From the NCBI RefSeq assembly GCF_001294625.1, contig NZ_CP012677.1, forward strand, positions 3,348,001-3,412,000: a stretch of 64,000 nucleotides of DNA. Reading direction: 5' to 3'. Source of the stretch: Arthrobacter alpinus (GTDB lineage: Bacteria > Actinomycetota > Actinomycetes > Actinomycetales > Micrococcaceae). Made by a program: the position numbers and the translations under genes. The notes under the pieces were generated by a model, which saw nothing but the letters and a program-made list of their open reading frames with translations, had not been told where the DNA came from and did no database searches. Shown piece after piece: positions 37,841 through 53,318 of the stretch. Positions within the stretch are counted from its first letter, which is position 1. Each line of letters starts with the position of its first letter.

Positions 37841-38167
37841 ATGAGCAATGCAAAAAATACTACCGATGCCACCTTCGCCGACGACGTCCTCAATGCGGAA
37901 ATGCCCGTCATTGTCGACTTCTGGGCAGAGTGGTGCGGTCCTTGCCGTAAAATCGGTCCCATCCTTGACGAGATCTCTGTTGAGTACGCCGACAAGGTCC
38001 AGGTCATCAAGGTCGACGTTGATGCCAACCCGGCCATTTCAGCCAAGTATGGAATCACCTCCATTCCGGCCGTATACCTCTTCCAAGGTGGCGAGGTCAA
38101 GAGCACAGTCATTGGTGCCCGACCCAAGCAATACATTGAAAAAGAGTTTGCCGAGTACTTGAAGTAA
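37841..38167 (+). CDS. trxA: Thioredoxin
   Basis: 108 residues. The active site is FWAEWCGPCRKIGPIL, with the cis-Pro loop in GITSIPAVYLFQGGE. It reduces protein disulfides and ribonucleotide reductase. It follows trxB in an operon and is ended by a strong hairpin. Confidence 0.98.
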   Translation: MSNAKNTTDATFADDVLNAEMPVIVDFWAEWCGPCRKIGPILDEISVEYADKVQVIKVDVDANPAISAKYGITSIPAVYLFQGGEVKSTVIGARPKQYIEKEFAEYLK

Positions 38168-38183
38168 TTATTGCCTGATAGTT

Positions 38184-38224
38184 AAATGGGTGTGGGCCGG
38201 ACGATATCCGGCCCACACCCATTT
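38184..38224 (+). terminator. Terminator hairpin after trxA
   Basis: AAATGGGTGTGGGCCGGA, five-base loop, TCCGGCCCACACCCATTT: an 18-bp perfect stem starting 17 bases past the trxA stop. TTT closes the right arm. Confidence 0.85.
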
Positions 38225-38308
38225 GGGCCAATCCGTCCAGTTCTCCCAGATTGATCCTAAGCACCAAAAGTGGAGGCCTGGCCCGGTGGTCCAGCCGGTC
38301 GAGGCCCG

Positions 38309-38324
38309 TGTTTCACGTGGAACA
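38309..38324. promoter_or_regulatory. parS site 1 (centromere-like ParB binding site)
   Basis: TGTTTCACGTGGAACA is the exact complement of the classical TGTTCCACGTGAAACA. It lies between the trxA and GNAT genes, about 7.4 kb from parB, and is the most distant of the six. Confidence 0.85.
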
Positions 38325-38334
38325 TGAAACCGTC

Positions 38335-38802
38335 CTAGGAGAGCGTCTTCGCCATTGTGATAGAAGTTGGCAGGTAGCCCAGAGAATCATAGAGGGTCCG
38401 GGCCACCGTATTGAACCCGAATACGTGCAGCCCGAGTTCCTTCCCGCCGCGACGCTTCGCTTCCGCCTCGGCCAGCAGCATGGCCGCCCTTCCGAAACCC
38501 TGGCCCCGGTGTTGGGAATGGACGCCGATGTCCCACACCCACCAGGCACCGTCCCGGGCCGTCGATTCCGGACCTATCCACAGGAACCCCACAACCTCAC
38601 CATCAGCGACAAGCTCATTGACCAGATGCCCTTCCGCGGGTTCACCGTCAGGGAAATACTTGGCATTGTCTGCCGCAGAATTCGCGCGGGCCAGTTCCGC
38701 AGATTCGCCCGATCTCATCCGGTCCTGTGCATAGTCCTCCAAGCACCACAGGAGCCAGTCCTGAAGTTGCTCGGCTGTCATCGGGCGAAGGCTAAGAGTC
38801 AT
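38335..38802 (-). CDS. GNAT-family N-acetyltransferase
   Basis: 155 residues from the ATG at 38802, which has GGAAGA upstream. The acetyl-CoA-binding loop is HSQHRGQGFGRAAMLLAEAE (RGQGFGRA) near residue 100, followed by LGLHVFGFNTVARTLYDSLG, the usual beta5-alpha4 region. It likely acetylates an amine of a small molecule or protein; the substrate is unknown. The longer frame to 38847 runs into the end of the decayed pnkp gene. Confidence 0.9.
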   Translation of the reverse strand: MTLSLRPMTAEQLQDWLLWCLEDYAQDRMRSGESAELARANSAADNAKYFPDGEPAEGHLVNELVADGEVVGFLWIGPESTARDGAWWVWDIGVHSQHRGQGFGRAAMLLAEAEAKRRGGKELGLHVFGFNTVARTLYDSLGYLPTSITMAKTLS

Positions 38803-39783
38803 GGATGTAAGTCTTCCACAATCACCGTTCAGAGTCTTAGGATCCACCTACTTCAACTCCATGGCCAGAACGGCAAACACAGCCTGGGACCCGCCAGAGC
38901 GATTCGACGGCCACGAACCGTTCCAGCGACTCGAACCCCGGCGCGTACTACCTCAGTACCCTGGACCTTTTGTGGGCTGCATTTTGCTCCCGCAGCCTGG
39001 CCACCTGATCGGGTTCAGTGTAGTCGGGTCCGCAGATCATGCGCAGCTACTCCCGTCCGCGGACCTTGAGTCCGGGCTGGATCAGCCGATTGCCGTCGGG
39101 GGTGAGTTTTGCAAATGGTTTGACCAACATCCCCTCCCCTCCGGCAGCTGTAAGGTCCAGCCACCGTTGTGTTCCCCTTTCAAGCGCCGCTGGCTCGCTC
39201 AGGTCGACGCTCAAGGATTGTGTCCTGCGGATCCGCTTCGGTTCAGCCCCTCCCAGTCGATCCAGAACCTTGAGGTGCCAGGGATGATCACTTCCGGTGT
39301 TTGTTCGCCCCCTTCCGATGCCTGAGTCTGGAAAGGGGCCAGCTGGACACTATCTAGGCCATTGGAGGGCGCACTGTACCGTCGATACGCGGCCACATAG
39401 TCTTCGGCATCCCGCGTCAGCACGACCACGGTCAGGAACCCCATGTGCTTCTCCTCGCAGATGACGTGCTCCACCCCTTCGGCCCGGTAGGCGGCATACG
39501 CTTCCCCGGGATGCTCCAAATATCCGACTTCCTTCGTTGCCCCCGCAGGGCTCATGGTTGGTGTCAGGTATGGCATCCACCGCGGATCTGCCCCCGACCT
39601 GCTCATGACATCCTCAACCTTGAGCATGCCGGGTGCCCGTTCCTGCACCGTGGGCTTTGTCGCGGCCACTGGTTTCATCAGGGCAAACCAGACTCTTTCT
39701 GCCGGTACCACCACCACTTCCCGTGCCGGATAGCGAAGGGCCGTCAGCTTGCGTCCAAAGACGACGCCCGTGTCAAGACACAT

Positions 39784-40048
39784 GCCCCGTTACCTTTTTA
39801 GTAGCCCCTTAAAGAGTAAGAATTGGGGTTGTTGGCCTGTCGGTCCCGGCAGGATTAAATCCCCCCGTCATTGATGATCAGGGGGGTGTTGCCGCCGGGA
39901 TCCGATAGGCGCCAGTGGATCGCTAATGGGGGCCGGACCAGCACAGCGAACCACCGTGTAGGTCAGCCGTAACGAAAGATGTCGAGCCTTGCCGCCGCAG
40001 GACAAGCCAACGAAGGTTTCACAGGACACTATTTCTGGGAGGTTTGCG
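39784..40048 (+). ncRNA. Non-coding left end of the IS110 element, candidate bridge RNA
   Basis: IS110-group elements encode a guide (bridge) RNA in the non-coding end upstream of the recombinase. This 265-base stretch has no gene. It has a stem CCCCCC (39861-39866) / GGGGGG (39881-39886) with a 14-base loop, and other GC-rich pairing segments. The exact RNA ends and guide loops cannot be fixed by eye. Confidence 0.4.
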
Positions 40049-41247
40049 TTGATCAAGAACCATGACGAAGTCGATATCTTCATTGGTGTTGATGTGGGCA
40101 AAAGCAATCACCACGCGGTCGCTATCGACCGAAAAGGCAAGAAACTCCTCGACCGGGCCCTGCACCAGGACGAGGCCAAACTCCGTGCCATCATCAAGTC
40201 CGTAGGAGGCAAGGGCGCGGTGTTGCTGGTCGTGGATCAGCCTTTGACCATTGCTGCGCTGCGGGTCGCTGTGGCCCAGGCTGAGGGAATCTTGGTTGGC
40301 TATATTCCGGGTTTGGCGATGCGTCGCATCGCGGACCTGCATCCCTGAGAAGCCAAGAACGATGCCCAGGATGCGGCCATTATTGCTGAAGCAGCCCGGT
40401 CTCTGCCGCATACGCTGCGTTCGATTGTCCTCGCCGATGAACAAGCCGCTGAACACTCCATTCTGTGCGGTTTTGACGACGATCTGGCCAAGCAGGCCCC
40501 CGCGACCTCGAACCGGATCCGAGGCCTACTGACTCAAGTTCACCCAGCCCTGGAACGTGTCATCGGCACGCACCTGAATCACCCTGCCATGGCCGAGTTA
40601 CTGATCAAATACCCAACCCCGGAAAAGCTGCGCAAGGCCGGGCAACCCCCCGTGGCGACACTGCTCGCCAAGTACGCGCCACGAGCAGGAAACCGTTGGG
40701 CCGCCGATGTTTTTTCGCCTTGGGCGAGCAGACCGTCGTCGTCGCCGGAACCGGTGCTGCAGGCATTGTTCTGCCCCTACTCGCCGCAATGCTCAAGCAA
40801 CTGCGCACCGCTAGGGATGAGCTCCTGACCCAGGTTGAAGCGCTCGTGGAGGCCCACCCTCTTCACCTCGTCCTGACCTCCATGCCCGCGGTCGGCGTCA
40901 GGACAAAAGCACGCATCATCACCGAGGTTTCGGTCAAGGAATTCCAGACTGCCGGCCACCTCGCTTCCTACGCCGGGCTGGCACCGGTGACCTGGCGATC
41001 GGGCACTTCGATCCGTGGCGACCACCTCTCCAAGAAGGGCAATAAGTCCCTGAAGCGGGCGTTCTTCCTCTCCGCGTTCGCGGCACTGAAAGACCCACTC
41101 TCCCGGGCCTACTACGACAGGAAACGAGCCGAGGGAAAACGCCACAACCAAGCCCTAATCGCCCTCGCCCGACGCCGCTGCGACGTGCTCTTCGCGATGC
41201 TCCCCAACGGCGCCCTCTACGACGTCCCGACCACCAAAATTACATAA
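40049..41247 (+). pseudogene. IS110-family transposase (DEDD recombinase), broken
   Basis: A TTG at 40049 with GGGAGG upstream begins the frame; DIFIGVDVGKSNHHAVAIDR is the RuvC-like N-terminal domain with its catalytic Asp. The frame is stopped by TGA at 40346-40348, where DLHP-stop-EAKNDAQDAAI should read Gly. It continues in the same frame until a run of six T near 40710-40716 shifts it. The rest, ALGEQTVVVAGTGAAGIV to HLASYAGLAPVTWRSGTSIR (Tnp domain with catalytic Ser), is in another frame. Two lesions make it inactive without help from another copy. Confidence 0.85.
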
Positions 41248-42167
41248 CCACTCAAAGAAAGCAGCTACCGGACACACCCCGGCAGCCACTACTCCATGCC
41301 CAAAAATACCTCGACAATATTTTTGAAGAAGAACCGCCAAAACCCTTGACGAAAAACATAGGGCCACCCCTTACCCATTCCGCCTCCAGGTGGGCGAATG
41401 TCCATAGAGAACTGTTGCCTTTCCCCTGTAGTCTTCGGCCCACGGTAGCCGCACCGGCAGGCCGTAACCCATAGTGACCTTCTTCACCTTCAACGCACAT
41501 ACCAGCTTGTCCTCATGGTCTCCGGGCACGGCGTATGCGTGTGCGTGTGCGTTGCCGCCCAGGCCCGTCACCAGCCGCAGTACGCCGGGACTGTCCAGGC
41601 CGCGATCCACCAGGTCACCAACAAATGTGGCCCTGCATCCCATCGGGTGCGACGCGTCCACGGCTCGCACCCGACAATGGTGTAGCGAGAGTGTCCAGCA
41701 AGCTGGAACGGTCCCCCAGGCAGCCGTGGACGTCCCCAATCATGCCAAACGGACCGGTAGCTGCAGTGAAGTCGTTGAGAAGCGGTTCCCGTCTGAATCT
41801 GTCCTCCGCAATCTCTGACTCACTGATGATGACGTGGATTTTTTTGGAATCCCTCCCTGCGCAGGGACTTGAGCGAGCGCCGTAGTCGGTCCAGTTGCCG
41901 GCGACTGACACGCTCATCCAGCCGCCTGTCTACCCTCTGGCCGTTCCGCGCCAGGCCAGCCTTACAGGTAGGTCGAGCACCACGGCGACAGTGAGCACAT
42001 CATGGTCCCGTGCCAGTTTGACCAGGGCCCGCCTGGCATCAGCTTGCGCGTTGGTGGTGTCTATGTACCCGCTCCGCTCGCCCCCACAAGCACTAGGAGG
42101 CAAAACTTCGGGATGCCAAGTTCCGCCAAAGTTAGATCCACCTGAAAGTTGCAAGTTCGGTGGTTTT

Positions 42168-43397
42168 CACCCACGGGCCGAAATGCCACTGTGCATCCGT
42201 AGCCGCTCAAAGCGGTGGTCTGGATGTTGCATGGCACCGGCGGGCAACTGCGGGTACAACGGGTTGCATTCCACGTTGGGGGTGGTGATAATGACAGCTC
42301 CCGGTCTGGCGTGCCCAAAGATATTGCCCAGCAGAACCGGCAAACGCTAGGGTTCTAGGTGTTCGATCACTTCCATCAGGACCACCGCTTTGTTTCCGGC
42401 TCTCCTAGCGTCAATGTAGGTAGCTGAGCTGTGGATCAGGCGTAGCCGTTCGCGTTGGCGGTCACCAGGCTCGTCCATGCGCAGCGTCTCCGCTGCCCGG
42501 AATTGGCTCTGTCGGATACGTCAGCGCCAATGATCTCCGTGAACCGGGGCTCAGCTACCAGCCGCTGCGTGAGTGTTCCGTCCCCGCAGCCAAGATCCAC
42601 CACGCGTTAGCCCTGTACATCATGCTGTCCCGCCATAACCCTCTCCGCACACAGTCTGTGGAACGGGGCGGGAATCTTCCCGCAAACCTCTGTGGGGCGG
42701 GAGGTATGTCACCAGTGGCCTGCCCCTTCCGGATCGTTCCTGCCCGGTTGAGCAGTTGGGAGGCGACCTCGACCATCCCCCGCTGGTGGGCCAGATACTT
42801 GTTCATGAGAATTTCTCCGTCTGGGTACCCTCCCAGCCATCCTTAACCGGCCCTCAGTAACTTGCCGACTTCGTCGTCGCCAACCCAATAGTGTTTGGAA
42901 TCGTCCATGACCGGAAGAAGTCCATAGATTTGGCGCACCGCATCTTGCAGGCGCAGCTTAGCGGCAAGTTCAACTTTGAAGTAGCTATATTCATCCAGTC
43001 CGGGAACGCTGGATCAAGGCGATGCCCTGATACCACGCGCCCGCCGAGCGGAGCAAAGAGCCGCGTGGCCATCTCCTCGCCTCCCTTGACCGGGACGGGT
43101 TTCGACCTGGCGGTCAGATCCATGGCCGACACCGCGAGATCAGGCCGCTTTTCACACCACTCGTTCATGGCCGTGCGAGACAGCTGCCCCGGGGCCACCG
43201 CCGCCATGGAGGATGACGTTAAGGTCGGTCGTTCACATATTCGTCCAGGGAGGCAGCATCAGCTTTCTGACTCCGGGGTAGAACACATGGACCTGCCAGA
43301 CGCTTGCCTCAATTGTCTGGACCGTGGCCGGGTGCTTCCGGAGCAGGTACCCAAGGTCCGTCGCGTCGGGCCATGTGTAGGTCTTGGTCACGAGCAA
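42168..43397 (-). pseudogene. hen1: Hen1 RNA 3'-terminal 2'-O-methyltransferase, decayed
   Basis: Minus-strand fragments in order: TWPDATDLGYLLRKHPATVQ and HVFYPGV (Hen1 N-terminal domain); SLDEYVNDRP-stop; CEKRPDLAVSAMDLTAR, GGEEMATRLFAPLG; LLPVMDDSKHYWVGDDEVGK, LLRAG-stop-GWLGG, MNKYLAHQRGMVEVASQLLN; then the methyltransferase core VVDLGCGDGTLTQRLVAEPR, IIGADVSDRA, AVVLMEVIEHLEP-stop and VIITTPNVECNPLYPQLPAG with HPDHRFE. Each piece matches Hen1 in the right order, but frames change and several stops occur. It lies just upstream of pnkp, as in intact RNA-repair operons. Confidence 0.8.
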
Positions 43398-43706
43398 TGA
43401 GTCCCCCAAGGCCGAATACTCCTCCGTTGCGCCAACCCTAACTCTATCCCCGGCTGGTGGCAGTCCCCCCAGCGACGCCAGCATTCAGGTAATCAGGTGC
43501 GCACCTCATGATGTGGGAAATGCTCGCGAAAACTCGTTCCACGGCCGTGTGCCTGGTTGCTATGGACCCCATGATAATGTTCGATCCCCAGACCTCCCTG
43601 GGCTTTCGTGCTCACTGGTGCTGAAGCGTGTATGACAGGCTTCGCCGGTATCCAAAAATGCGGCGCCACGGTTTCGCAGGATGCTGACAATTTCTGGTGG
43701 TCTTCT

Positions 43707-43722
43707 TGTTTCACGTGAAACA
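43707..43722. promoter_or_regulatory. parS site 2
   Basis: TGTTTCACGTGAAACA, a perfect 16-bp palindrome, 2 kb from the 3' end of parB. Confidence 0.93.
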
Positions 43723-44793
43723 GCATCCAGCAGTTTGGTCCGGCGTTGCGCTCAAGGATTTGCGCCATGCAGCTTCACGACCTGCATCCCCATGCCACAT
43801 TCGACGGTCTCGGCGACGCATGGTGGTCAGTTGAACCAGATGACCATGTCTGCTCCCTACACATGAGCGATCGACTGCCGCTGGCTCAATGCATCAGTAG
43901 ATTCTCCAATGTCAATAGTGATTCGCGCGCTTTGACCTCGTTAGGGGCGGGGCGCGGCTGACAAGAGCACTCACGACGTGGTTGCGGACGCCTGCGGCCT
44001 GCTCTAGTCTGCTAGTCATCCTACTTCCGGCGCCGACCAGAGCCTATGCCCTAATGATCTGGCATCTTCATCCGCGACAGCGTCCTCCCCGAACTCACGT
44101 CCACAGGCCACGGGTACTTCCTGCCGGGTCTGGGCATTAGTCCTTCTGCGGTCTTTGAATCCCGAGGACTCGGCGGTATGAGCTAGCCGGGTGCATGGGT
44201 TGAATTGCCGAAGGTCCTCTCATTCCCAACCGAGTCCTCTGCCAAGGGCAGTGAAAAGCATGACTGGGCTTATCGAATGTCGCCCGCCGCCGCCGGAAGC
44301 TGTTCTGCGGGAAGTACGCATCGGCTGCTTGTCCACTATTCGACCCGAGAGTGCCCTTGCACAATTTCCTTACCGCAAGCCGGTAGTCAACCTTCTTGTA
44401 TGAGAAATTTTCACTTGCGCCTGCGTCGGATTCACGCCGCTGATGAACGAACGCTCCAGCTCGCCGCAGCTTTCCGGCCGATGTGGGTGCTGCATAGGCG
44501 GGCTACCGCGGAACCTACTTCTTGGCCCGGGAGCATAAATTAATGCATCACGCCACGCCCCAGAGGCTTCCTGCAATCGTGAATATTCGGTTGCAGGCGG
44601 ACTAGGAGCGCGAAGGCAGGTATTCGCATGGACTCCGGGTGAGGTCCGGACTCCTGCACCCACCAGGTCCGGTAGTGCGCCCATGGACTGTATCTGGTTC
44701 TGAAATACCTATATGTCCAGCGGTGACGTAGGCATCTACGTGCTGGTATGAGGGTCAGTCGATAGATGTTCTCCGCGCACGGTTTAGCGGCGT

Positions 44794-44809
44794 TGTTTCA
44801 CGTGAAACG
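44794..44809. promoter_or_regulatory. parS site 3, one mismatch
   Basis: TGTTTCACGTGAAACG; only the last base differs from the palindrome. Confidence 0.85.
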
Positions 44810-44950
44810 TAGTATGGTAGCCGTCACTCATCCGTAGAAGCCGAAAAAAGGAGCTGGGGTCCAGTTGCCCCTGCAAGCCACGAGTTGATCTCGAGTGGGG
44901 TCCGGGCTCCCTGCACGTCCAGTAGGCCATGAGGGGGCCCCTGATCCCGC

Positions 44951-44986
44951 TATGGCTATGGCTATGGCTATGACTATGACTATGAC
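44951..44986. repeat. 6-bp tandem repeat, six units
   Basis: Three units of TATGGC followed directly by three of TATGAC. On the minus strand one frame reads (Ser-His) repeats, but that frame has no gene features. A likely slippage site in non-coding DNA. Confidence 0.8.
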
Positions 44987-45505
44987 CCACTCTGAACTCA
45001 CCGTGTGGCGCTCCCGGTGCTGGCGTGCCCGTCATTTAGTGTGCTCGACGAAAGGTATCACCTCCCAACAATATTTTCCGTAAAAAGATGTTCGGAGAGT
45101 CCAAATTCTCGCCACGGATTGAGCTTCACGCAATCCGGAACGTAGGCGTCACCGCGACTACTGCCCCGTATTTCTGGGTAACAGTACCAACATAGCCTCT
45201 GCCGAACTATTGCTGGGAAAAGTTCGCCCCTAGGTCCCCAGCCCGCCGGCTGGTCATAGGCGAGTGACTGTCATCATTCCGCCGAGGCACGACGGGCCAC
45301 GCGTCGCAGCTGTGGGCCCGGAGCTGCTTAACGGATAAATGCTGGTCTCTAGTAACGATTCCCCTCAGTCATTCATCCACCGACTTTCCGAGAACTATCT
45401 GGTGACTCCCCGTGCGTAATCGTCACTCGATGGCCCGGCGGTCAAGGGCCTGGCGCTCTGCCATAGCCAACCTGTTCAGAATCATGAATGACCAATCCAC
45501 CAAGA

Positions 45506-45521
45506 TGTTTCACGTGAAACC
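45506..45521. promoter_or_regulatory. parS site 4, one mismatch
   Basis: TGTTTCACGTGAAACC; the last base differs from the palindrome. It is 171 bases from site 5. Confidence 0.85.
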
Positions 45522-45668
45522 CGATTCTGTACGAGGAAAAGAATAATGTTGTCGAAATCAGGGAAACGGCCGCAGAATTGCCCCGAACTTCGTATCGCCC
45601 TTCACAATATTTTTTTGTTTAGAATCGCTCTCAGAGAATCAAACAGAATCAATTTGGTCAGCAGAAAA

Positions 45669-45700
45669 GGTCGTGTTGTTTCACGTGAAACAACACGACC
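45669..45700. terminator. 32-bp palindrome: parS site 5 nested in the parB terminator
   Basis: The perfect parS TGTTTCACGTGAAACA occupies 45677-45692. It is extended by GGTCGTGT and ACACGACC to a perfect 32-bp palindrome. Read from parB on the minus strand it is followed by TTTTCTGC, so the transcript can form a 16-bp stem with a U-tract 18 bases past the parB stop. Confidence 0.8.
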
Positions 45701-45717
45701 CTTCGGCGAAAGGACTT

Positions 45718-46731
45718 CTAGTTGGAACCGGGGGCGAGGACATCCATGATCCGGTTCAGGTCCTCAACAGAGGCAAACTCAATGCTCACCTTGCCCTTTC
45801 GCGCGCCCAGAGAAATCTTAACATTCGTGTCAAGGCGATCAGACAAGGAGCTGGCCAGAAAGTCAAGGCGCTCATGCCGGGGGCTCGGTTTGGTACTCCG
45901 GTCCTTCTGCGCATCAGCCGGGACCTGGTAAAGCTGAACCGCCTCTTCCGTTGCCCGCACGGACATTCCCTCGGAAACGATCTTTTGTGCCAAAAGCTCC
46001 ATGGCGTCAGTCCCAGGCAAGCCCAATAGCGCCCTAGCGTGACCTGCCGAGAGTACCCCCGCAGCCACCCGACGCTGAACCACAGGCGGCAACTTCAGCA
46101 GTCGAAGCGTGTTGGAGACCTGGGGCCTGGAGCGCCCAATCTTGTCTGCCAGCTGCTCGTGTGTGGTTCCGAAGTCCTCAAGGAGCTGTTGGTATGCTGC
46201 AGCCTCCTCCAAGGGATTCAGTTGGCTACGATGAAGGTTTTCAAGCAGTGCATCACGGAGTAGATTGTCATCGCTTGTTTCGCGAACGATAACGGGAATG
46301 GTTTCCAGGCCGGCGGCTTGGGACGCACGCCAACGGCGTTCACCCATGACCAATTCATAGGGCTGGTCACCCTTTTCAGTCGACTTGCGGACTACAATCG
46401 GCTGGAGAATGCCGATTTCCTTGACGGAATGTACCAGTTCTGCCATGTCGTCTTCATCGAAGACCGTCCTAGGCTGCTTTCGGTTGGGGTGGATTTCCCC
46501 TACGGGCAGCTCCATGAACCGTGCACCGGGAACCTCTACAAGCTCAATCGCAGCCGGCTCAGGGACTTTTTTAGTCTCCCGCGCAGTGCCTGCAGTTTTC
46601 CGGCCTTTGGGTTCCGGAAAGAAGAGATCTACTGGACGGGTCGGCTGTGATGAGGAACCCGAATCATCCGAGGATGAATTGGGTATCAAAGCACCTAAGC
46701 CGCGACCAAGGCCTCTACGCTTTTCGGTCAT
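45718..46731 (-). CDS. parB: Chromosome-partitioning protein ParB
   Basis: 337 residues from the ATG at 46731, 8 bases after GGAGGA; upstream in-frame ATGs are too near that site. It starts TEKRRGLGRGLGALIP, the typical end that contacts ParA. The CTP-binding ParB/Srx domain includes NRKQPRTVFDEDDMAELVHS and GERRWRASQAAGLETIPVIV. The DNA-binding helix-turn-helix (IGRSRPQVSNTLRLLKLP) follows, then a C-terminal dimerisation domain. It loads at the parS sites nearby and organises the origin for segregation. Confidence 0.97.
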   Translation of the reverse strand: MTEKRRGLGRGLGALIPNSSSDDSGSSSQPTRPVDLFFPEPKGRKTAGTARETKKVPEPAAIELVEVPGARFMELPVGEIHPNRKQPRTVFDEDDMAELVHSVKEIGILQPIVVRKSTEKGDQPYELVMGERRWRASQAAGLETIPVIVRETSDDNLLRDALLENLHRSQLNPLEEAAAYQQLLEDFGTTHEQLADKIGRSRPQVSNTLRLLKLPPVVQRRVAAGVLSAGHARALLGLPGTDAMELLAQKIVSEGMSVRATEEAVQLYQVPADAQKDRSTKPSPRHERLDFLASSLSDRLDTNVKISLGARKGKVSIEFASVEDLNRIMDVLAPGSN

Positions 46732-46826
46732 TGACATGTCCTCCATTGAATGAGCCCCTCAAAGTGCGAGCCAGATGAAATTCTTAGTTTGGGTGGAATC
46801 CAGGATGGCATTCCCATACTTGCATT

Positions 46827-51848: not shown

Positions 51849-53318
51849 ATGGGCACTGAGGGGATCAATACCGAGGAGATCAACGATGTTGGTAGTTCCT
51901 GGCGCAGAGTCATCCGAATTTTGGAACAGGACGAACGAGTCTCTCCACGGCAGCGAGGTTTTGTTGTCCTCACTCAGCCACAGGGCCTCATTGGCAACAC
52001 GCTTTTGGTTGCTGTACCCAACGAACTGACGCGTGAGGTTCTGCAAACCCAGCTCAATACTGCTCTGGTTGAAGCTCTCAGACAGGTATTTCCGGCGGAA
52101 ATCAGCTGCGCATTCAGCGTCAACGCCGATCTAGTCCCCACCCGCAAGGAAGAAGTTGCAGCTCCAGAACAGGTTCCGGTGCGTGCTGACCGCAATGACC
52201 GCGTTGAACGCATAGAACGTTCGGAACGAATCGACATTGCTTCCAAACCGTCACCGATGCTGCCCAGTACGTCCCAAGAATTTGGTCGGTTGAATCCAAA
52301 GTATGTTTTTGACTCCTTTGTCATCGGGTCCTCGAACCGCTTTGCCCATGCAGCGGCAGTAGCCGTTGCCGAGGCGCCGGCCAAGGCTTATAACCCGTTG
52401 TTCATCTACGGCGACTCCGGTTTGGGAAAAACACATCTGCTGCACGCCATTGGCCACTATGCGCGCCGACTCTACAACGGAATCCGGGTTCGCTACGTGA
52501 ACTCCGAAGAGTTCACCAACGATTTCATCAACTCCATTCGTGACGATGAGGGGGCCAGCTTCAAGCAGCTCTACCGCAATGTAGACATCCTCCTCATTGA
52601 TGACATCCAGTTCCTAGCCAACAAAGATGCCACCCAGGAAGAGTTCTTCCACACCTTCAACGCCTTGCACAACCACAACAAGCAGGTAGTCATCACCTCA
52701 GATCTGCCTCCCAAAAGGTTGCAAGGATTTGAGGAACGCATGAGATCACGTTTTGAGTGGGGCTTGCTCACCGATGTGCAGCCACCCGAGCTGGAAACCC
52801 GCATCGCCATCTTGCGAAAGAAGGCGATCGGTGAGGGTCTATCAGCGCCGGACGATGCCCTTGAATACATTGCCTCAAAGATCTCAACGAACATCCGTGA
52901 ACTTGAAGGTGCTTTGATCAGGGTCACCGCCTTCGCAAGCTTGAACCGGCAGCCGGTGGATGTGGGCCTGGCCGAGATGGTTTTGAAGGACCTGATCACC
53001 GACGACGGCGCCCAAGAGATCACTTCAACGGCGATCCTTGGACAAACGGCAGCGTACTTCAACATCTCCTTGGAAGAGTTGTGCAGCAAGTCACGCACCC
53101 GAACCCTGGTCACTGCGCGGCAAATTGCCATGTATCTGTGCCGGGAGCTGACCGACATGTCACTGCCCAAGATCGGGCAGGAATTTGGTGGCAGGGACCA
53201 CACCACGGTCATGCACGCGGACCGGAAAATCAGAGAACTTATGGCTGAACGGCGCGCCATCTACAACCAGGTGACCGAGCTGACCAACAAGATCAAGCAG
53301 CAACAGCGAGAAGGATAA
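51849..53318 (+). CDS. dnaA: Chromosomal replication initiator DnaA
   Basis: 489 residues with GGGGAGAAG before the ATG. Domain I at the N-terminus (SSWRRVIRILEQDERVSPRQ) binds partners; a charged domain II linker follows. Domain III starts LNPKYVFDSFVIGSSNRFAH, with Walker A YGDSGLGKTHLLHAIG and Walker B DILLIDDIQFLANK. Domain IV contains the DnaA signature MSLPKIGQEFGGRDHTTVMH. It binds the boxes on both sides of its gene and melts the origin. Confidence 0.98.
   Translation: MGTEGINTEEINDVGSSWRRVIRILEQDERVSPRQRGFVVLTQPQGLIGNTLLVAVPNELTREVLQTQLNTALVEALRQVFPAEISCAFSVNADLVPTRKEEVAAPEQVPVRADRNDRVERIERSERIDIASKPSPMLPSTSQEFGRLNPKYVFDSFVIGSSNRFAHAAAVAVAEAPAKAYNPLFIYGDSGLGKTHLLHAIGHYARRLYNGIRVRYVNSEEFTNDFINSIRDDEGASFKQLYRNVDILLIDDIQFLANKDATQEEFFHTFNALHNHNKQVVITSDLPPKRLQGFEERMRSRFEWGLLTDVQPPELETRIAILRKKAIGEGLSAPDDALEYIASKISTNIRELEGALIRVTAFASLNRQPVDVGLAEMVLKDLITDDGAQEITSTAILGQTAAYFNISLEELCSKSRTRTLVTARQIAMYLCRELTDMSLPKIGQEFGGRDHTTVMHADRKIRELMAERRAIYNQVTELTNKIKQQQREG

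Follow-up and report, generated by a model that had tools for sequence, protein, structure and literature searches.

The DNA between trxA and parB of Arthrobacter alpinus R3.8 is very probably a dead Pnkp-Hen1 RNA-repair operon, gained early at this site, passed on mainly by descent, and lost separately in several branches, in R3.8 after its split from its sister genome G012. The window, that is, the whole stretch of 64,000 nucleotides analyzed, belongs to a genome of 4,046,453 bp in one contig, from a strain described in its genome report as isolated from Antarctic soil (PMC5586057). The fossil operon occupies positions 38,831 to 43,397 on the minus strand and ends about 8.5 kb from dnaA (51,849 to 53,318), which makes its description in an earlier note on this DNA as next to the chromosome origin a fair one. 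The site comprises the following features:

37841..38167, plus strand: trxA, open, left border of the site
38335..38847, minus strand: GNAT acetyltransferase gene, open (PF00583, E 4e-16)
38836..39783, minus strand: pnkp remnant, end of the phosphatase part and ligase part, downstream of the IS110 element (TIGR04075, PF16542)
39786..41367 (about), plus strand: IS110-family element inside pnkp (PF01548 and PF02371, nucleotide match)
41389..42110, minus strand: pnkp remnant, kinase and phosphatase part, upstream of the IS110 element (TIGR04075 pieces, tblastn)
42194..43397, minus strand: hen1 remnant, Hen1_L N-terminal part and methyltransferase part (TIGR04074 pieces, tblastn; six pieces in three frames)
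45718..46746, minus strand: parB, open, right border of the site

The earlier note had recognized Hen1 and Pnkp by twelve short motifs, each of which is present a single time in a six-frame translation of the 64-kb window, on the minus strand, in the order given there and in three frames. Its family assignment was borne out by profile searches and alignment. The bacterial Hen1 profile TIGR04074 matched five broken pieces at the locus (best E 1.0e-33), and the bacterial Pnkp profile TIGR04075 gave nine matches genome-wide, eight of them at the locus (best E 3.6e-42). As expected for broken genes, the best pieces (117.2 and 145.1 bits, respectively) did not reach the curated cut-offs of 340 and 750 bits; at this site, the four unbroken copies of relatives score 629 to 657 bits against TIGR04074. 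The ninth TIGR04075 match (64 positions, 23.7 bits), in another open frame, was taken as a different phosphatase, and no second intact copy of Hen1 or Pnkp was found above either family cut-off in the R3.8 genome. With the proteins of an intact relative as queries, tblastn retrieved six Hen1 pieces (42,194 to 43,397) and seven Pnkp pieces (38,836 to 42,064). Frameshift-tolerant alignment with Hen1 and Pnkp of G012, the nearest unbroken relative, gave scores of 1004, 641, and 834, against a top score of 71 among controls (five shuffles and one reversal of each stretch). Hen1 homology runs in order over residues 1 to 441 of 461, with 58% identity over 389 matched residues. The aligned Pnkp residues, 1 to 377 and 387 to 844 of 845, lie on either side of the IS110 element, with deletions, and include pieces of the kinase, phosphatase, and ligase parts in this order, among them the P-loop motif of the kinase part at 42,070 to 42,093 and a PNKP_ligase match (PF16542, E 3.5e-33) at 39,214 to 39,783. 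The unbroken Pnkp of G012 contains the domains PF13671, PF00149, and PF16542.

Decay of both genes, likewise claimed before, is extensive, with 11 frameshifts, six in-frame stops, and seven deletions of at least 10 residues in the frameshift-tolerant alignment. Five of the frameshifts and three of the stops fall in the hen1 remnant, as do two deletions (12 and 26 residues) and a 16-residue insertion. In pnkp, the part upstream of the IS110 element has four frameshifts and has lost 73 and 55 residues in two deletions, and the part downstream of it has two frameshifts, three stops, and three deletions (59, 56, and 27 residues); with six frameshifts, three stops, five large deletions, and the IS110 element in total, no open frame able to make the enzyme is left. 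Twelve genes of six unbroken copies, serving as intact controls, showed neither frameshifts nor stops. The large deletions and the IS110 element that splits pnkp were both absent from the earlier note. This element is 81.6% identical to the IS110 of an Arthrobacter alpinus plasmid and itself carries one in-frame stop and one frameshift, with PF01548 and PF02371 of its transposase falling in different frames. One other IS110 copy was found in the R3.8 genome, 87% identical over 1,235 of 1,385 bases. Given the broken transposase and this identity to the other copy, the insertion is not fresh. IS110 relatives also occur near trxA or parB at four further loci (L068, L069, L074, and L089). As judged from its sequence, the R3.8 locus as it stands should be unable to make a whole Pnkp or Hen1 for RNA sealing or 2'-O-methylation.

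The operon is patchily distributed in the genus sample of 23 genomes, R3.8 (G000) included. Pnkp matches above the cut-off were found in eight genomes and Hen1 matches in nine, the ninth being G020 (L088), in which Hen1 runs into a contig end; weak TIGR04074 matches, many of them to the methyltransferase domain (E about 1e-3 to 1e-6), were set aside, 19 of the 23 genomes having some match. A full-length operon lies between parB and trxA in G002, G008, G011, G012, and G006, and it is intact there in the first four. The comparison of the trxA-parB locus with relatives proposed in the earlier note thus found an unbroken copy in four of the 22 relatives, among them the sister of R3.8, all with the same gene order, which upholds its claim that the lineage once carried the system. 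The copy of G006 has two in-frame stops in each gene and no frameshift (raw counts of 3 and 11 had included codons with N). These stops may reflect a recent loss or assembly errors, since the codon pattern of this copy resembles that of its sister and the 14.3 kb of the locus contain 38 N; five flanking genes are without stops. A second fossil, with 13 frameshifts and two stops in all, is located beside parB in G022, whose trxA belongs to a different contig. Three genomes, G003, G015, and G017, have the operon at a place other than the parB-trxA site (among loci L081, L086, L087, and L088, the last that of G020). The remaining 12 genomes are without the operon, and the parB-trxA interval of 11 of them gave no match at E 1e-4, that of G004 being cut by contig ends. 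A Pnkp match of 69 positions in G019 (E 8.7e-4) was taken as another kinase, and this genome was counted among the 12.

Across a family sample of 295 genomes, with three candidates scored per genome, Pnkp matches above the cut-off were detected in 20, of which only that of G006 has stops. In this list no fossil was seen outside the genus, and partial Pnkp matches in long open frames were found in G156 and G249. hen1 stands directly before pnkp in the eight full copies of the genus and in the 12 outside copies inspected. Among named parB loci, none of the best 80 of at least 586 had a match to either Hen1 or Pnkp (E 1e-5) in the DNA covered; trxA and parB were both matched in 68 of these 80.

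The parB-trxA interval itself varies in content and length across the genus (37,841 to 45,718 in R3.8; L062 to L080). A GNAT gene is found in it at L069, L071, L073, L075, and L079, with the operon, as in R3.8 and L071, or without it; in the sister genome G012 it likewise adjoins the operon, the neighbor in L071 being 62% identical. No gene was recognized in the roughly 2.3 kb that separate the fossil from parB (43,400 to 45,720); comparison of this gap with the compared loci gave four chance-like matches of 28 to 31 bases only, and tblastx against five relatives gave no match.

Damaged copies make up three of seven at the parB-trxA site and none of the 15 full copies located at other places in the family sample (p = 0.023; p = 0.29 with the R3.8 copy left out and G006 counted as intact), so that a higher damage rate at this site is suggestive at most. 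This contrast bears on the possibility that the loss was not specific to RNA repair and that the operon was one casualty of a genome decaying as a whole, a reading that we rate only slightly short of an even chance and that is compatible with an early gain followed by separate losses. The R3.8 genome report counts 169 pseudogenes in the text and 359 in a table (PMC5586057), and such general decay may therefore be enough to account for the loss. Against it stands the damage to the same operon in G022, and perhaps in G006, though the contrast with copies elsewhere is weak. The earlier note had proposed that the lineage lost the need for the system, which may be so. Neither of two candidate replacement ligases accounts for the loss: RtcB was found in none of the 23 genus genomes, although the control search detected it in nine of 14 known genomes, and the PF09414 RNA ligase, absent from R3.8, was found in one of the 23, G012 (L193), which keeps an unbroken operon. 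Both general genome decay and a relaxed need are thus possible causes.

The separateness of the losses follows from a tree of six flanking proteins, covering 22 of the 23 genus genomes and three outgroups (G020, for which data were lacking, was left out). R3.8 was placed as sister to G012 (100/99), and G022 grouped with G005 and G013, both without the operon (100/99), with G006 in another part of the tree; given the positions of R3.8 and G022, the two fossils represent losses that occurred separately. A second tree, built from 20 full copies across the family sample without the fossils, united the five full site copies, G006 included, in one clade (100/99) apart from copies elsewhere, so that one early insertion, lost several times, is most likely. 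The copies of G015 and G017 nested among those of other genera, and that of G003 paired with another outside copy (97/95). When the fossils were included in a gene tree, their branches were very long; the fork of R3.8 with G012 stayed open and the placement of G022 unsure. G008 grouped with G002 and G006 in the gene tree (100/100), but in the flank tree it was G012 that lay on the G002/G006 side (96/92), and some exchange at the site is therefore possible.

Transfer does happen, as the nesting of the G015 and G017 copies among those of other genera indicates, and R3.8 could in principle have received an already broken copy of a system never used in its lineage. We consider this very unlikely, because site, gene order, and GNAT neighbor are the same as for the unbroken copy in the sister G012, which is also the nearest copy to the remnant by path length, albeit on a long branch with weak placing. 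The preferred reading of an early gain with separate losses might extend to a turnover of the parB-trxA copy, in which an operon gained once beside the origin was selected in some branches and lost separately in several more, where neither ligase searched for turned up as a replacement, and in which the lineage of G015 and G017 took up the system again from other genera, at a different place in the genome; we regard this extension as neither favored nor disfavored.

Loss of constraint on the remnant was evident from a frame-free count of changes per branch by codon position, with G011 as the outgroup. This count replaced an earlier one on tblastn pieces, discarded for values that looked inflated at piece ends; its own frame-change (small-indel) counts were also discarded, as an unbroken control gene likewise gave 13 frame-changing gaps. 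On the R3.8 branch, changes at positions 1, 2, and 3 were.145,.138, and.166 for Hen1 and.099,.141, and.209 and.148,.115, and.193 for Pnkp in its two parts; the corresponding values for the G012 branch were.066,.033, and.209 for Hen1 and.081,.041, and.180 and.058,.037, and.217 for the Pnkp parts. Summed changes at positions 1 and 2 versus position 3 were 191:133 for R3.8 and 74:147 for G012 (chi-square p 9e-9, with sites treated as independent), implying that the unbroken G012 copy is under selection and the R3.8 remnant largely not. The end branch of R3.8 in the gene tree was 1.01 compared with 0.12 for G012, and in the flanking proteins 0.086 compared with 0.038.

These counts also weigh on two readings in which something at the locus still works. 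A surviving piece such as the 190-residue frame at 39,211 to 39,783, which is open and yields the PF16542 match at E 3.5e-33, might be a functional protein, but it holds parts of the ligase domain only and the stretch shows relaxed substitution, which renders this even less probable than receipt of a broken copy. Long-read assemblies are prone to small indels, and the R3.8 genome is one (HGAP 2, 101.74-fold coverage, according to its report [PMC5586057]), yet a working operon that looks broken through errors of sequencing or assembly is the least credible explanation of all, given seven deletions of at least 10 residues, an inserted and broken IS110 element, relaxed substitution at the first two codon positions, and open reading frames in the neighbors trxA, parB, and the GNAT gene.

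Taken as an early gain with separate losses, the history of the locus would have begun with the arrival, most likely once, of an intact hen1-pnkp pair in the parB-trxA interval of an ancestral member of the genus. The operon would then have passed on mainly by descent and been abandoned separately in several branches, in that of R3.8 after the split from G012. In R3.8, point mutations, frameshifts, deletions, and the IS110 insertion would have accumulated, with IS110 itself decaying in turn. It is tempting to speculate that selection was relaxed by a lack of exposure to ribotoxins.

Sealing of ribotoxin-cut RNA and methylation of the repaired end by the Pnkp-Hen1 family are known in vitro. According to the account of these complexes in PMC4411300, methylation of the repaired site renders the RNA resistant to the same toxin, and the Pnkp and Hen1 genes are always in one operon. 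The R3.8 locus shares with the bacterial Pnkp-Hen1 complex (TIGR04075/TIGR04074) both families and a hen1 gene directly before pnkp, but differs in that both genes are broken beyond function. The Pnkp1-Rnl-Hen1 complex has related Hen1 and ligase parts; as described in the same source (PMC4411300), its Rnl has a gene of its own and its Hen1 is encoded at a distance, without linkage, whereas in R3.8 ligase, kinase, and phosphatase once formed one protein beside Hen1. RtcB represents another RNA-repair route, different in being without a match in the genus sample. In the open-licence literature, with most subscription papers outside this scope, we found no earlier report of decayed Pnkp-Hen1 operons; in one phage paper matching Pnkp, Hen1, and pseudogene, the pseudogene in the two passages concerned is a tRNA pseudogene.

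The locus is an ordinary pseudogene pair of a known system, and what it adds is a single site at which unbroken, eroded, and empty states form a decay series, with the sign of a later regain at other places. In 2015, the RNAs that such complexes repair in vivo were described as still unknown (PMC4411300). Sister species that differ in whether they keep the system at a shared site, as G012 and R3.8 do, form a natural comparison for finding out what kind of RNA damage Pnkp-Hen1 answers. If the proposed turnover is true, selection for repairing RNA cut by ribotoxins would come and go within a single genus, and the need for it would be testable across sister species.
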